Shown here: piece after piece, positions 45,583 through 52,438 of the stretch | Numbering within the stretch: the stretch's first letter is position 1 | How the letters are laid out: the number at the start of each line of letters is the position of its first letter | Assembly: GCA_017554615.1 (NCBI GenBank) | Contig: JAFZHY010000017.1 | Coordinates: 1-53,653, forward strand | Source of the DNA: Clostridia bacterium | GTDB lineage: Bacteria; Bacillota; Clostridia; UMGS1840; HGM11507 | Direction of reading: 5' to 3' | DNA length: 53,653 nucleotides | Position numbers and translations under genes: made by a program | Notes under the pieces: model-generated | Seen by the model: only the letters and a program-made list of their open reading frames with translations | What the model was told of the DNA's origin: nothing | The model's database searches: none

Positions 45583-47874
45583 TTATTTCTGTAAATCTTT
45601 ATTTCTTATTTCTACACGCCTTACTTTACCGCTTATAGTTTTTGGAAGTTCATCTACAAATTCTACAATTCTTGGATATTTGTAAGGAGCAGTATGAGTC
45701 TTAACATATTCCTGAATTTCTTTTTTAAGTTCATCAGACGGTGTATTTCCTTTAGTAAGAACTATTGTGGCTTTAACAATCTGACCTCTTACTTCGTCAG
45801 GAACAGGAGTTATGGCACATTCTAAAACATATGGAAGTTCCATAATTACGCTTTCTATTTCAAACGGGCCGATACGGTAGCCTGATGATTTAATAACATC
45901 ATCAATACGGCCTACATACCAAAGGTATCCGTCTTCGTCCATTGTTGCCTGATCCCCTGTGTGATAATATCCGTCGTGCCAAGCTTCGTTTGTTTTTTCT
46001 TCATCTAAGTAATATCCTGTAAAGAGTCCGCATGGTGCACCGTCTTTTGTGCGTATGCAGATTTCCCCTGTATCACCAGTTTTACATTCGTTACCGTCAG
46101 CATCTAATAAAACTACGTCATAAAGTGGGCTTGGTCTTCCCATTGAGCCGATTTTTGGTTTTGAGCCTACAAAGTTTGCAATAGAAAGAGTAGTTTCAGT
46201 CTGCCCGAAACCTTCCATAATTGTTAGTCCTGTGGCTTTTTTGAACTGATTAAACACTTCAGGGTTTAATGCTTCTCCTGCAGTTGTAGCATATTCTATT
46301 GAAGATAAATCGTATTTTGATAAATCTTCTTTAATAAAGAATCTGTACATAGTAGGCGGAGCGCAGAATGTTGTTATATTATATTTTTTAAATAAAGGTA
46401 AAATATCTTCTGAACTAAATCTGTCAAAATCATATGTAAATATTCCTGCTTCACATAGCCATTGACCGTAAAGTTTACCCCATAGCGCTTTACCCCAGCC
46501 TGTATCAGAGATGGTAAAGTGAAGACCGTCGCGTTTTACATTGTGCCAATGTTTAGCAGTAGGGTAGTGGCCTAACGCATATTTATATGAATGTGTCGCA
46601 ATACGCGGATAACCTGTTGTGCCTGATGTAAATATCATAAGCATAGGGTCATCGCCGCAAGGAGTGTTTTCATTTCTTTTATAATGAGTGCTGAAACGTT
46701 CCATTTCAGTATTATAATCATTCCATCCGTCTCTTTGTCCGCCAACAAGAATCTTAATCATAGAGTCAAATTCTTTTGATGCCTTTTCTGCCTCGTATGA
46801 AACATCTCCGTCAGCAGTACAAACAATCGCTTTAACCCCTGCAGCCTTGTATCTGTAAGAAAAATCGTGTTCTACCAACTGATTTGTTGCAGGAATAGCA
46901 ATAGCACCTATTTTATGAAGTGCAAGCATACAGAACCAGAACTGATAATGGCGTTTTAATACAAGCATTACTTTATCGCCTTTTTTAATACCGAGCGATT
47001 CAAAATAGTTTGCAGTTTTTGCAGAGTATTTCTTCATATCGCTGAAAGTAAATTTTCTGTCTGATTTATCATTTGCAACCCACATCATTGCTAACTTATC
47101 AGGGTTTTTCTTTGCAATAGCATCAACACAGTCAAAAGCAAAGTTGAATTTATCTTCATTTTTAAATTTAACTCCGTTAAATACACCTTTTTTATCATAG
47201 AAAGATTCTATAAAATTATCAGCAACAGTATGAGATGAGTTTTCTTTAACTTCTGTTTTGGTTTCAATATAAGGAGTTTCAGGATATTCTTCGCTAAAAT
47301 GTCCGTCCTGAGGGTTTAAAACAACTGCGTGAAATTCACATCCGCCCTCGCTTACTGCAATCATACCGTGAGGAATAATACTGTTGTAAAAAATAGAGTC
47401 GCCCTCGTTTAAAATATCAATATGGTCTCCAACCTGCACTTTAAGTGAACCCTTAACGATAACATCAAATTCCTGACCGTTATGAGAACTTAGTTTTATA
47501 GGAGCATTTTGTTCTTCGGCGATATAAGGGAATTTAACTAAGAAAGGTTCTGCAAGTTTTTCTTTGAATTTAGGCGCTAAGTTGTTATACACAACGCCAT
47601 GGCTTTTTAAAATTTTAAGACCTTCTCCTTTTCTTGTAATAGCAAAAGAAGTAAGTGTTGAACTTGTTCCCTCTAAAATATCAACAACTTCAACATTACA
47701 TGCTTTGGCACATTTATAAATAAATGTAAAACTAAAATCAGTTTCTCCCTGCTCTAATACAAGGTAGTCTTCCAAAGACACGCCTGTTAGTTTTGCAAGT
47801 TCTTCTGGGGAGTATCCTTTAGCCTCTCTTAAGTCTTTAATTCTTCCTGCAACCTCTTTTAAACTGTATTCCAT
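45583..47874 (-). CDS. fusion protein: XRE helix-turn-helix, cupin and AMP-forming acyl-CoA synthetase
   Basis: A 763-residue three-part protein. Residues 1-60 look like an XRE-type helix-turn-helix (RIKDLREAKGYSPEELAKLT, GVSLEDYLVLEQGE). Residues about 95-215 look like a cupin barrel (SSHNGQEFDVIVKGSLKVQ, EGDSIFYNSIIPHGM). From about 240 there is a complete acyl-CoA synthetase of the medium-chain/acetate type: IFTSGTTGYPRIATHS (A3), EGFGQTETTLS (A5), YYHTGDQATMDEDGY (A7), GRIDDVIKSSGYRIGPFEIE (A8) and the lysine-bearing KTISGKVRRVEIR (A10). It should activate a carboxylic acid to its CoA thioester; the HTH-cupin part may sense the acid and bind DNA or regulate the enzyme. A T-box leader with its own promoter precedes it. 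Confidence 0.88.
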   Translation of the reverse strand: MEYSLKEVAGRIKDLREAKGYSPEELAKLTGVSLEDYLVLEQGETDFSFTFIYKCAKACNVEVVDILEGTSSTLTSFAITRKGEGLKILKSHGVVYNNLAPKFKEKLAEPFLVKFPYIAEEQNAPIKLSSHNGQEFDVIVKGSLKVQVGDHIDILNEGDSIFYNSIIPHGMIAVSEGGCEFHAVVLNPQDGHFSEEYPETPYIETKTEVKENSSHTVADNFIESFYDKKGVFNGVKFKNEDKFNFAFDCVDAIAKKNPDKLAMMWVANDKSDRKFTFSDMKKYSAKTANYFESLGIKKGDKVMLVLKRHYQFWFCMLALHKIGAIAIPATNQLVEHDFSYRYKAAGVKAIVCTADGDVSYEAEKASKEFDSMIKILVGGQRDGWNDYNTEMERFSTHYKRNENTPCGDDPMLMIFTSGTTGYPRIATHSYKYALGHYPTAKHWHNVKRDGLHFTISDTGWGKALWGKLYGQWLCEAGIFTYDFDRFSSEDILPLFKKYNITTFCAPPTMYRFFIKEDLSKYDLSSIEYATTAGEALNPEVFNQFKKATGLTIMEGFGQTETTLSIANFVGSKPKIGSMGRPSPLYDVVLLDADGNECKTGDTGEICIRTKDGAPCGLFTGYYLDEEKTNEAWHDGYYHTGDQATMDEDGYLWYVGRIDDVIKSSGYRIGPFEIESVIMELPYVLECAITPVPDEVRGQIVKATIVLTKGNTPSDELKKEIQEYVKTHTAPYKYPRIVEFVDELPKTISGKVRRVEIRNKDLQK

Positions 47875-47916
47875 TTATTTTACAACTCCTTTTTAAAAAA
47901 AGATTATAAACTTTAT

Positions 47917-48200
47917 TAAAAAAACCCGTCTCAAATTACTTTGAGACGAGTTGATAAAACCCGCGGTACCACTCAAATTACGGAAAAATTTATCCGTCGC
48001 TTACCGGACTCTGTCAAGCCCTTTGCCTTTACGCAGCAATACGGAAGGAGTCTACTTGCATCCTTTGCTTTCGGTCCTTCGACTCAGAAGTGATAAGTCA
48101 TTGGAAAGTTCTGCTATTGCCTTGCACCAATCGGCAACTCTCTGTAAGCATTACTGCCCGACCGTCTTCGTCACAGTCTTTTTTTGAGATATTCAAATTC
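47917..48200 (-). promoter_or_regulatory. T-box leader 1, upstream of the HTH-cupin-synthetase gene
   Basis: On the minus strand the T-box core AGTGGTACCGCGGG lies at 47958-47973, followed by a terminator stem (CGTCTCAAA with TTTGAGACG) and seven T at 47917-47924. Upstream stem I shows the AGTAA strand, AGAGAG and GGTG elements, and GAACTTTCC as the specifier-side strand. The specifier is probably CUU (Leu) by alignment with leader 2, but the base after it is not the usual purine, and UUU (Phe) in a shifted reading cannot be ruled out. Confidence 0.85.
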
Positions 48201-48257: not shown

Positions 48258-50717
48258 TTATTTTTTTAGTCCTAATATTTCTACCGATTCATCGCGCATT
48301 TTATATTTTAGAATTTTTCCTGCAGCATTCATAGGGAACTCTTTTACGAAAACAAAGTATTTAGGAACTTTATGTCTTGCAATAGACATATTACCAAATT
48401 CTTTCATTTCATTTTCGTCGGCAGTCTCTCCTTTGTGAAGTATTATCCAGGCGCAACATTCCTCTCCGTATCTTTCGTCAGGAACGCCTACTACCTGAAC
48501 ATCTTTTACCTTAGGGTTAGTTAAGTAAAATTCTTCAATTTCACGAGGATATAAGTTTTCTCCGCCACGGATAATCATATCCTTTAATCTTCCTGTTACC
48601 TTGTAATAACCGTCAGAAGTTCTAAGACAGATATCCCCTGAATGAAGCCAACCGTCTTTATCAATAGCCTGACTTGTTGCTTCAGGCATTTTGTAATACC
48701 CCTTCATTATGTTAAAGCCTCTTGCTACAAACTCTCCACTTTCTCCGTCAGGCATCTCTTCTCCTGTTTCAGGGTCAATAACCTTACATTCAACACCAGG
48801 GAACGGGCTTCCGACAGTTTCAACACGGTGGTCAATATCTTCATTTACTTCGCCCATTGTACAGCCGGGGGAAGCCTCTGTCTGACCGTAAACCGAAATA
48901 ATCTCTTTCATATTCATTTCGTCGGCAGCGCGTCTCATAAGGTCAGCAGGGCAGTTTGCACCTGCCATAATTCCTGTTCTCATATATGAAAAATCAGTTT
49001 TACTAAAATCAGGATGAGCAAACATTGCAATAAACATGGTAGGAACTCCGTTAAAACAGGTAATATGCTCATCATTAACACAAGACAGGGAAGACTTAGG
49101 CGAGAAATACGGAATAGGGCAAAGAGTACCCCCGTGAGTCATCATTGATGTCATAGATAAAACCATTCCGAAACAGTGGAACATAGGCACCTGAATCATC
49201 ATACGGTCTGCAGTTGATAAGTCCATTCTGTCGCCGATTATTTTACCGTTGTTTACAATATTTCTGTGGGTAAGCATAACCCCTTTAGGAAAGCCTGTTG
49301 TTCCTGATGTATACTGCATATTACATACATCATCAGGTTTAACAAGTGATGCTCTTCTTCTTACTTCTTCTCTTGGAATAAGTGATGCGCGTGAAAGCAT
49401 CTTTTCCCATGTTAAGCATCCATCCATTGAAAACCCTGCAGTAACAACATTTCTTAAAAACGGAAGATTTTTAGAATATAAAGGTTTTCCAGGAGTTAAG
49501 TTTTTAAGTTCAGGACACAAGGTCTGTATAATTTCTTTATAGTTAATATCTTTACAGTACTCTATCATTATAAGAGTATGAGTATCTGACTGTTTTAATA
49601 AATATTCTATTTCGTGAATTTTATAAGCAGTATTTACAGTTACTAAAACTGCTCCGATTTTTGTAGTTGCCCAGAATGTAATAAACCATTCAGGAATATT
49701 GGTAGCCCATACTGCAACATGGTCTCCTGCCTTTACTCCAAGAGAGATAAGCGCAGCAGCACATTCGTCAACATCGCGTCTGAACTGTTCATATGTTCTT
49801 GTGTAATCCAAAGTCGGATATTTAAATGCATATTGGTCAGGATAATTTTCTGCCATAGTATCTAAAACATCTGAAAATGTTGCATCAACAAGGTCATATT
49901 TTTTCCAGACATATGTTCCTGTTTTTGCACGGTTAAAATATGCATGGTCAAAATTTTTCTTTTCCCTTTTAAGTGATGAAATATAATTTGCAAAGTGTGT
50001 AAGAACTATATCTGCATCATTGATTTCTTCGTTCCATGCAGCACAGATAAACCCTTCGTAGTTAAGAGAAGAAAGAGCGTTTATAAGTTTTTCAACAGGT
50101 AATTCTCCCTCGCCGATAAGAACTGTTTTTGAATCTTTCATATCTCCAAGTCTTACATATTTAATATATGCGCCAAGAGTTTTTATAGTGGTTTCTGCAG
50201 TTTCCAAAGCATCAAAATATGTACCTCTTAAATTCCAGGATACGCCTATTGCAGCGCTGGAAAAATAGTTTATAATATCAAGCACCTTTTCGGTGTTTGC
50301 AAGAAAACCTACTGTTTCAAAAAGAATTAAAACATCCTGATTTTCTGCTTTTTTAATAGCAGGGGATAACTTTTCTGATAATATTTCAAAAGGAGTGTCT
50401 TCCATAACTCTTACTATAACATTTGGAATACCTGATTCCTTTGCCATATCCACATATTTTGAAATAAGCGAAGATGTTGTATTCTCATCTTCAACAGGGC
50501 AAGGCATACGAAGAGCGCTAACATGAATGTTTCTGTTGATAAGTTTTCTTCTTGCATCGGCAACACGGTCTCTTCTTAAGATACTGTCGTGATGCTGAGT
50601 GCGTTCCTTAATGGCATCATATATTTCAAACCCTGCAAAACCGTATTCATATGCATACTGGCATACATCAAGAAAAGATGCACGGTTTACATTTTTTGTT
50701 GAAAATACAATTTTCAT
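48258..50717 (-). CDS. fusion protein: AP-endonuclease/sugar-isomerase-type TIM barrel plus AMP-forming acyl-CoA ligase
   Basis: An 819-residue protein. Residues 1 to about 255 resemble the xylose-isomerase-like TIM barrel (AP_endonuc_2): KIVFSTKNVNRASFLDVCQY, YGFAGFEIYDA, LILFETVGFLANTEKVLD, YIKYVRLGDMKDSKTVLIGE, GEGELPVEKLINALSSLNYE. Residues about 270-819 are a full fatty-acid-type CoA ligase: MQYTSGTTGFPKGVMLTHRN (A3), SVYGQTEASPGC (A5), WLHSGDICLRT (A7), GRLKDMIIRGGENLYPREIE (A8), NAAGKILKYKMRDE (A10). The ligase should make an acyl-CoA; the barrel's role is unknown. ATG 50717 lies one base after the LeuA-like stop, with AGGAGG inside that gene, so the two are tightly co-translated. Confidence 0.88.
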   Translation of the reverse strand: MKIVFSTKNVNRASFLDVCQYAYEYGFAGFEIYDAIKERTQHHDSILRRDRVADARRKLINRNIHVSALRMPCPVEDENTTSSLISKYVDMAKESGIPNVIVRVMEDTPFEILSEKLSPAIKKAENQDVLILFETVGFLANTEKVLDIINYFSSAAIGVSWNLRGTYFDALETAETTIKTLGAYIKYVRLGDMKDSKTVLIGEGELPVEKLINALSSLNYEGFICAAWNEEINDADIVLTHFANYISSLKREKKNFDHAYFNRAKTGTYVWKKYDLVDATFSDVLDTMAENYPDQYAFKYPTLDYTRTYEQFRRDVDECAAALISLGVKAGDHVAVWATNIPEWFITFWATTKIGAVLVTVNTAYKIHEIEYLLKQSDTHTLIMIEYCKDINYKEIIQTLCPELKNLTPGKPLYSKNLPFLRNVVTAGFSMDGCLTWEKMLSRASLIPREEVRRRASLVKPDDVCNMQYTSGTTGFPKGVMLTHRNIVNNGKIIGDRMDLSTADRMMIQVPMFHCFGMVLSMTSMMTHGGTLCPIPYFSPKSSLSCVNDEHITCFNGVPTMFIAMFAHPDFSKTDFSYMRTGIMAGANCPADLMRRAADEMNMKEIISVYGQTEASPGCTMGEVNEDIDHRVETVGSPFPGVECKVIDPETGEEMPDGESGEFVARGFNIMKGYYKMPEATSQAIDKDGWLHSGDICLRTSDGYYKVTGRLKDMIIRGGENLYPREIEEFYLTNPKVKDVQVVGVPDERYGEECCAWIILHKGETADENEMKEFGNMSIARHKVPKYFVFVKEFPMNAAGKILKYKMRDESVEILGLKK

Positions 50718-50718
50718 T

Positions 50719-52107
50719 TTATGCCTCCTCAAATACTATCTTGTTAAGAGCGTTGATATATGCTCTTATACTTGCAGCAACAATATCGTCAGAAATACCG
50801 TTTCCTGAATATAATTTTCCGTTATTTCTAAGTCTTACAAGGGCAGAGCCTAACGCTTCTTTACCCTCTGTTACAGAATGAACTTCAAAATCGTCAAGTT
50901 CGTAATGATGGCCCACGCATTGTTCAATAGCACGAAAAGCCGAATCAATAGGTCCGTCGCCAACACTTACGCCACACATAACCTCATCGCCACTCTTTAG
51001 AGTAACCTGAGTCATTGAGCCTGTAATGTTTCCACTTGTTGTAGTATAGTTTTCAAGATGATATGAACTTGGTGCCTGCATAGCATATCCTGCAATCAAC
51101 GCTTCAAGTTCTTTTGCTCCTACTGCATCTTTCTTTTCTAAAACCTTCATAAGTGCTTTATGCACATTCCCACAGTCATATTCAGAAAGGTCGTAACCTA
51201 AAATGCGTGTAGCATGGGTAACTTCTTTAAGTGTACTGTCAGCATCAAGTAAAATCTTTTTCTTTTCACTGACTTCATTTTTTATTTCATAAACTTCACT
51301 TTTTATTGATGAAAGCATATCTTCTATGCTTGAGTGAATTTTAGTGTTGTTAAGGTTAGTTTTTAAATCAAGTTGAGATGAGCAAACATTTATAGCATCT
51401 GCAATTTCGCCTGTAAGCATTATATCATTTCCTGCCATAGCGCATTTAAGACCGTCTGCACCGTTTGTAATTGCGCATATACCTGATGCAACACCCATAT
51501 TGATACGGTCTGATACCTGAACATATAGCGGTATTGATATTTCGCTTTTAATCTTTTTAGTAAGGCTTCCTATTTCTTCAGGAAGAGAAATTCCGGCATC
51601 GTCGCACAGTGTAACTAATGTGGCACCGTTATTTTCTGCTTCTTTTACTGCACTGATAAGAAAGTCAATATCTGCTCTTGTAGCATCAAGTGCGCAAAAT
51701 TCAACATCATCACAAAATTCTTTGGCGCATTTTACAAGTTCGCCGATTTTTAAAGTCATCTTATCTGCTTTTATATGATATGTATATTCCATCTGTACGG
51801 TTGATACAGGAAGTTCAATCTGCAAACGTGGTTTTTTAGCATCTTTTATACATTCCCAGGCATTTTTAATTTCTTCCGAAGAAAAACCTGCAGGAATGGC
51901 AAGATGAGCGTTTTCAACATTATTTGCAATGGTTTTATAAATAATAGTATCTTCTCTTAAATTTTTAATTGGCGCAAGTTCTATAACGTCTGCACCGATA
52001 CTGTCTGCACAGGCTGCAACACTGGTTTTTTCACGAAATAAAAGAGAAACTTCTCTTTCATAAGAAAGTTTTTTAAGTGTAATATCAGAAATATTAATGT
52101 TTTTCAT
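50719..52107 (-). CDS. LeuA-like (HMGL/2-isopropylmalate synthase) protein with degenerate active site and intact C-terminal regulatory domain
   Basis: A 462-residue protein. The C-terminal 130 or so residues match the LeuA dimer/regulatory domain that binds leucine in 2-isopropylmalate synthase (NITGSMTQVTLKSGDEVMCG, VGDGPIDSAFRAIEQC). The N-terminal two thirds look like an HMGL-type TIM barrel, but the DTTLRDGEQ motif reads SDITLKKLSYERE near residue 8, and the metal-binding H-x-H-N-D segment reads VQVSDRIN at about residues 196-203. The usual metal ligands therefore seem lost. ATG 52107 with GAGAGGAG upstream is chosen; the frame from 52188 runs into the T-box terminator. First gene of a leucine-type T-box unit. 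It may be a catalytically inactive sensor or a diverged enzyme. Confidence 0.8.
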   Translation of the reverse strand: MKNINISDITLKKLSYEREVSLLFREKTSVAACADSIGADVIELAPIKNLREDTIIYKTIANNVENAHLAIPAGFSSEEIKNAWECIKDAKKPRLQIELPVSTVQMEYTYHIKADKMTLKIGELVKCAKEFCDDVEFCALDATRADIDFLISAVKEAENNGATLVTLCDDAGISLPEEIGSLTKKIKSEISIPLYVQVSDRINMGVASGICAITNGADGLKCAMAGNDIMLTGEIADAINVCSSQLDLKTNLNNTKIHSSIEDMLSSIKSEVYEIKNEVSEKKKILLDADSTLKEVTHATRILGYDLSEYDCGNVHKALMKVLEKKDAVGAKELEALIAGYAMQAPSSYHLENYTTTSGNITGSMTQVTLKSGDEVMCGVSVGDGPIDSAFRAIEQCVGHHYELDDFEVHSVTEGKEALGSALVRLRNNGKLYSGNGISDDIVAASIRAYINALNKIVFEEA

Positions 52108-52154: not shown

Positions 52155-52438
52155 CAAAAAAACGCTCCCGTCTCTCTGCTTTATTCAAAGAGACGAAAAC
52201 GCAAAGTTCTCCTTCGTTTCCGCGGTACCACTCTTCTTCATCCTAAGGGATGCACTTTAGATGCCAACACATCTTAACTCTGTTACGGGAGTGCCCGTCT
52301 GCCACTACTAATAAATTCACAGCAGCCGCTCCGCGGTGAGTTCAGTAAAACTTTTTTAATGCTTTCCACCAAACAGCATCTCTCTTTAAAAAAAGAATTC
52401 ACTTACTATTCCGCCTCTTAGCGTTTTTAACTTATCGA
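52155..52438 (-). promoter_or_regulatory. T-box leader 2, upstream of the LeuA-like gene, probable leucine specifier
   Basis: On the minus strand stem I opens with GGCGGAATAGTAAGTGAA. It has AGAGAGATGC and GGTGG elements and returns through ACTGAACTCACCGCGG, where GCGG pairs with CCGC and the specifier loop reads GAA-CUC-A, a leucine codon. The T-box core AGAGTGGTACCGCGGAA lies at about 52218-52234, and the terminator is CGTTTTCGTCTCT with AGAGAGACGGGAGCG followed by seven T at 52157-52202. It should permit transcription when tRNA-Leu is uncharged. Confidence 0.87.

Follow-up and report, generated by a model that had tools for sequence, protein, structure and literature searches.

A catalytically degenerate LeuA homologue as the probable leucine-sensing partner of an acyl-CoA ligase in Clostridia

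What is the function of a LeuA-like protein that has retained a regulatory domain of the leucine-binding type but has lost the residues on which catalysis by 2-isopropylmalate synthases depends? This question is raised by a gene, referred to here as pseudo-LeuA, in the 53,653-nucleotide stretch of contig JAFZHY010000017.1 from a Clostridia bacterium that we analyzed in silico (the window). The first-pass annotation of this DNA viewed the encoded protein as a pseudoenzyme turned leucine sensor or, alternatively, as an enzyme with a new metal-free reaction. As reported below, the former reading is the one that is best supported by the data.

Pseudo-LeuA and its degenerate active site

The gene span that had originally been proposed was confirmed: the reading frame starts with an ATG at position 52107, its stop codon lies inside 50719-52107, and its features are the following.

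50719..52107, minus strand: pseudo-LeuA, 462 aa, a degenerate HMGL-like/DRE-TIM barrel plus a LeuA_dimer regulatory domain (Pfam, NCBIfam, alignment)
52060..52086, minus strand: dead motif 1, D-I-T-L-K-K-L-S-Y replacing DTTLRDGEQ, with loss of the catalytic Arg and of the metal-binding Asp (alignment)
51505..51519, minus strand: dead motif 2, Q-V-S-D-R replacing H-x-H-N-D, with loss of both metal-binding His residues (alignment)
50737..51117, minus strand: LeuA_dimer regulatory (leucine-binding-type) domain, residues 331-457 (PF08502, 109.6 bits; cut-off 24.9)

Pseudo-LeuA is a LeuA homologue by descent and belongs to the HMGL-like/DRE-TIM barrel superfamily; Pfam recognizes both its HMGL-like part (1.3e-28) and its LeuA_dimer domain (1.4e-31). 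Its scores against the NCBIfam LeuA models, whose equivalog cut-offs range from 517 to 748 bits, are far under all of these thresholds (best score 242.8 bits vs. a cut-off of 532; TIGR00973, 224.2 vs. 598.7). Each of the three stretches highlighted in the first-pass annotation is present in the protein: SDITLKKLSYERE is found at the position of the LeuA motif DTTLRDGEQ, VQVSDRIN occupies that of H-x-H-N-D, and VGDGPIDSAFRAIEQ is conserved in the C-terminal regulatory region. The window's protein thus carries Lys for the catalytic Arg, Lys for the metal-binding Asp, and Gln and Ser for the two residues of His-x-His; the Asn of GERAGN is absent as well. Its LeuA_dimer domain was rightly described as well kept, as judged from the PF08502 score and from the retention of GDGPIDSAF, TEGKEALG, and DIVAAS in the alignment.

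We aligned 21 divergent members of the pseudo-LeuA family with seven catalytically intact homologues as controls, six of them LeuA proteins (three from same-order genomes) and one a citramalate-synthase-like protein. The loss of the metal site proved to be a property of the whole family: the Asp is gone in 20 of the 21 members, both His ligands and the Asn of GERAGN are gone in all 21, and the catalytic His/Tyr sub-domain (sub-domain I, ESGIHQHG...TYEIM) is deleted in every one of them, while the metal ligands are present in 7/7 controls. The former active-site position D14 varies freely within the family (K, E, N, Q, R, A, or V). The suggested loss of the catalytic Arg holds for the window, where the residue is Lys, but this is a conservative exchange found in 12/21 members, and Arg itself persists in 7/21; the telling losses are therefore those of the metal ligands and of the deleted sub-domain. 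The polar residues that pseudo-LeuA has kept are for the most part ones that it has in common with LeuA outside the metal site; in the barrel, the LeuA-shared polar residues D8, E43, D141, R144, and D169 persist. In the regulatory part, the motifs GDGPIDAAF, TEG-EALG, and STDI-ASI-AY-NALNK are kept among the 21 members. Judged by these residues, the assignment of pseudo-LeuA as a pseudoenzyme is well supported, and since the defining catalytic features were looked for and are missing, the name 2-isopropylmalate synthase should not be applied to the protein.

The superposition on LeuA that had been suggested as a check gave a matching barrel fold: in the AF2 model of pseudo-LeuA (pLDDT 80.6), the barrel aligns to LeuA 3ewb with a Z-score of 36.6 and 1.9 Å over 262 residues. 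Comparison of the full-length model with the leucine-bound LeuA protein from M. tuberculosis (3fig) yielded an rmsd of 17.2 Å, a value that reflects a different placement of the domains; the case for the regulatory domain therefore rests on sequence evidence. This part of the model is of moderate confidence (block-mean pLDDT 44-84), and no useful match was obtained when the C-terminal domain was compared by itself with the sequences of the PDB.

The adjacent ligase fusion and the T-box leaders

The genetic surroundings of pseudo-LeuA add to the first-pass annotation two T-box leaders, a pathway context, and a second, apparently degenerate barrel in the adjacent ligase.

52186..52428, minus strand: T-box leader 5' of pseudo-LeuA (RF00230, 141.4 bits; gathering threshold 93)
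52338..52340, minus strand: specifier codon CUC (leucine) of this leader (leader inspection and homologous leaders)
48258..50717, minus strand: TIM-barrel/acyl-CoA ligase fusion, 819 aa from the ATG at 50717, co-directional with pseudo-LeuA (Pfam, NCBIfam)
49893..50717, minus strand: N-terminal xylose-isomerase-like (AP_endonuc_2) barrel of the fusion (Pfam; AF2 model, pLDDT 88.9)
47939..48183, minus strand: second T-box leader, specifier AUC (isoleucine) at 48094-48092 (RF00230, 97.6 bits vs. 93)
45583..47874, minus strand: XRE-cupin-acyl-CoA ligase, the next gene after the fusion (Pfam, NCBIfam, PDB match)

The T-box sequence of the pseudo-LeuA leader is located at 52233-52220. Among 67 homologous leaders, the specifier is CUC in 63 and CUG in one, with the other three left without a call; these counts include by-eye overrulings from the listed candidates, since in some leaders the triplet chosen automatically as the specifier was wrong. 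A pattern search detected no T-box at the Spirochaete copies of pseudo-LeuA.

The gene for the fusion protein starts just past the stop codon of pseudo-LeuA, and the ligase motifs TSGTTGFPK, YGQTE, SGD, GRLKD, and GKILK are intact in it. Pseudo-LeuA is followed by the barrel-ligase fusion in the examined loci wherever the contig reaches that far, including the most divergent ones and those of the Spirochaetales. From the leucine-specific T-box and the genetic context, the substrate of this ligase would be isovalerate. The N-terminal barrel of the fusion is modelled as a relative of sugar isomerases and epimerases (Z-scores of 25.5-26.9). When the Glu/Asp/His/Glu metal site of these enzymes was mapped by eye onto sequence motifs, E134 was found to be kept, with W161, R189, and W228 at the likely positions of the other ligands; these three residues are conserved in 91/91, 82/91, and 89/91 of the fusion barrels, respectively, again with positions assigned by motif and not by coordinates. 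Three of the four metal ligands thus appear to be replaced, and a second dead barrel is likely, not proven, because the mapping relies on motifs rather than on superposed coordinates.

The stretch 45583-48183 carries an XRE-cupin-MACS-type ligase under the control of an isoleucine T-box, and distant paralogues in related bacteria possess valine or isoleucine specifiers. The leaders of close XRE-cupin ligase genes read AUC in 14/14 cases, and those of the distant paralogues AUC or GUA (Val) where a specifier could be read. The best matches of the ligase domain are MacsMa (3etc; 8.7e-208) and NCBIfam MbcS; it differs from them by its fusion to XRE and cupin domains, and it is not the partner of pseudo-LeuA. 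MacsMa prefers 2-methylbutyrate as its substrate (PMC10455477), a preference that fits the isoleucine specifier of the sister ligase, which is probably a 2-methylbutyrate ligase serving isoleucine synthesis. This arrangement suggests one ligand-sensing XRE-cupin fusion per branched-chain acid. Collectively, the T-box specifiers in the cluster assign candidate genes to the three branched-chain acids.

Genes for a carboxylation route to leucine

It has been known since the 1960s that rumen anaerobes use branched-chain volatile fatty acids to make the branched-chain amino acids, and the carboxylation of isovalerate to leucine is established rumen biochemistry (Allison 1962 and 1966, as cited in PMC7356843). 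Like the route predicted here from genes, this biochemically known route would rely on a ligase, a 2-oxoacid:ferredoxin oxidoreductase, and an aminotransferase. Neither a regulatory subunit nor a T-box nor a dead LeuA is named in the literature found on it, and we did not find the committed ligases of the rumen carboxylation routes, or their control, named in the open-access literature.

The genome from which the window derives (1.28 Mb; 98.7% complete) encodes VorB (557 bits; cut-off 399), a VOR beta subunit, IorA, and a type II IlvE; the VOR and IlvE genes are located on other contigs than pseudo-LeuA. In this genome, we detected no IlvC, no LeuA_dimer protein besides pseudo-LeuA, and no LeuC-sized member of the aconitase family, the single representative of which is aconitase-sized (756 aa frame). 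Its second HMGL-like protein, considered as a possible LeuA, is by sequence inspection oxaloacetate-decarboxylase-alpha-like and has a sodium-pump beta-like neighbour.

This gene complement is typical of the carriers of pseudo-LeuA, most of which lack LeuA, LeuC, and IlvC and possess a 2-ketoisovalerate:ferredoxin oxidoreductase (VOR) together with the aminotransferase IlvE. IlvC is absent in 47 of 53 carrier genomes and present in 14/14 control genomes; a second LeuA_dimer protein is absent in 44/53 carriers and present in 9/53. In an even draw of 393 genomes of the class (31 carriers, 362 non-carriers), IlvC was found in 5/31 carriers vs. 220/362 non-carriers (p = 1.6e-6) and VorB in 28/31 vs. 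208/362 (p = 1.9e-4), with p-values that ignore the relatedness of the genomes. The link to the pathway is not universal, given the few carriers with IlvC or a second LeuA and the genome G363, in which IlvC is present and VorB does not exceed the cut-off. VorB also does not score above the cut-off in G390 and G443, whose genomes are 91-93% complete.

The strongest evidence for the pathway is provided by gene clusters that include VorB, Vor-beta, and IlvE. In 22 of 92 loci, the pseudo-LeuA/ligase pair has genes for VorB/Vor-beta and/or IlvE at a distance of no more than about 9 kb, and several different arrangements occur. One locus (L132) has the order VorB - Vor-beta - IlvE - T-box - pseudo-LeuA - ligase, and in three others (L015, L046, L048) the order is XRE-cupin-ligase - VorB - Vor-beta - IlvE - Leu T-box - pseudo-LeuA - ligase. 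The route from isovalerate via isovaleryl-CoA and 2-ketoisocaproate to leucine is well supported as the pathway of this cluster. At a separate site of the window's own genome (L095, contig C22), an acyl-CoA ligase gene is positioned directly upstream of IorA, an arrangement that suggests a parallel route by which aromatic amino acids are formed through the carboxylation of arylacetates.

Proposed role of pseudo-LeuA and its alternatives

Taken together, the dead active site, the retained leucine-binding tail, and the location in a leucine-controlled isovalerate cluster make it probable that pseudo-LeuA is a catalytically dead LeuA that senses leucine and regulates its partner, the adjacent isovalerate-CoA ligase. 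With LeuA (3ewb, 3rmj, 3fig) it shares the barrel fold and the C-terminal LeuA_dimer domain, which in LeuA binds leucine at the dimer interface (PMC11057210); unlike LeuA, it has neither metal ligands nor the catalytic sub-domain, and a CoA ligase takes the place of leuBCD as its partner. In the proposed scheme, the ligase would form isovaleryl-CoA from isovalerate, VOR would reductively carboxylate it to 2-ketoisocaproate, and IlvE would aminate the latter to leucine, so that the enzyme on which leucine usually exerts its feedback, isopropylmalate synthase, would be bypassed. The regulatory domain of LeuA would have been retained on an inactive barrel and would have acquired a new target in the ligase, the new committed enzyme. 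Pseudo-LeuA probably docks on the degenerate N-terminal barrel of the fusion, and its leucine-bound form would inhibit the ligase; uncharged tRNA-Leu would act through the T-box as a separate transcriptional switch of the gene pair. Leucine binding, the physical complex with the ligase, and the sign of the regulation are features that we infer.

A precedent for such a division of labor is HisZ, a catalytically inactive paralogue of aminoacyl-tRNA synthetases. This regulatory protein mediates the inhibition of HisG by histidine and thereby carries end-product control to its partner enzyme (PMC9734150). By analogy, pseudo-LeuA most likely works like a HisZ-type regulatory subunit: in both cases end-product inhibition would be passed to a separate enzyme, the short-form ATP phosphoribosyltransferase HisG in the case of HisZ. 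The two proteins differ in fold, ligand, and target, and the complex that is predicted for pseudo-LeuA has been proven in the case of HisZ. The wider picture, in which the dead LeuA and the dead sugar-isomerase barrel form a leucine-sensing complex on the isovalerate-CoA ligase, with the XRE-cupin ligases as parallels for isoleucine and valine, is put forward tentatively, as a proposal whose chances fall slightly short of even. If true, the carboxylation route to leucine would be subject to feedback at the level of both the protein and the T-box, and the cluster offers an account of how feedback could persist once LeuA has been bypassed.

LeuA_dimer domains are able to bind isoleucine as well, as in citramalate synthases. 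The dead LeuA might be a subunit that serves the ligase in a structural or activating role without responding to leucine, or might sense 2-ketoisocaproate, isovaleryl-CoA, isoleucine, or another ligand of the pathway. Its conserved pairing with the ligase fusion fits such a role, and since several LeuA-shared polar residues are kept in the barrel, a ligand bound there is conceivable; we nevertheless regard this possibility as unlikely, since conservation within the protein is highest in the regulatory domain and both the T-box and the pathway point to leucine.

Conversion of pseudo-LeuA into an enzyme whose new reaction in branched-chain metabolism needs no metal would agree with the retained LeuA-like barrel fold and with the selection that maintains the gene. 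This second proposal of the first-pass annotation found no positive support: the sub-domain and the metal ligands are gone across the 21 aligned members, the old active-site positions vary freely, most of the remaining polar residues also occur in LeuA outside the metal site, and the pathway is complete without a further step, all of which renders it quite improbable. Marginally less probable still is a leucine-responsive transcriptional or other regulator whose target is not the adjacent ligase. The leucine-binding-type domain and the leucine-controlled expression would suit such a protein, but Pfam detected no nucleic-acid-binding domain in pseudo-LeuA, and the position of its gene next to the ligase fusion is fixed even in the Spirochaetales without a detected T-box.

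A decaying leuA pseudogene or a mis-assembly, to which the loss of catalytic residues might point, was rejected as practically untenable in view of the conserved context, reading frames that are intact in dozens of independent assemblies, and a pN far below pS (0.15 vs. 0.68 for the window's gene against that of L003; 0.033 vs. 0.36 between L028 and L021), which indicates purifying selection. Matches to LeuA of the pseudo-LeuA type do not equal classical leucine synthesis, a point that affects auxotrophy predictions from gut metagenomes.

No description of pseudo-LeuA or its cluster was found in searches of the open-access full-text literature. Among the plasmid records listed, matches were only at the level of ordinary LeuA (identity up to 27.5%). 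Three proteins with 280-bit hits in the class (G127, G073, G303) were considered as possible intermediates and turned out to be ordinary LeuA, with DTTLRDGEQ, HxHND, and the sub-domain intact. In the same-order genus g4, one genome (G006) has only pseudo-LeuA and three (G004, G005, G007) have only ordinary LeuA, an either/or distribution by which the two proteins appear to replace each other. The pseudo-LeuA family is monophyletic (support 100/100) and spans Clostridia and Spirochaetales. The Spirochaetales rumen genomes with the pseudo-LeuA/ligase pair (L073-L081) are nested inside the clostridial family tree, which suggests a transfer between phyla.
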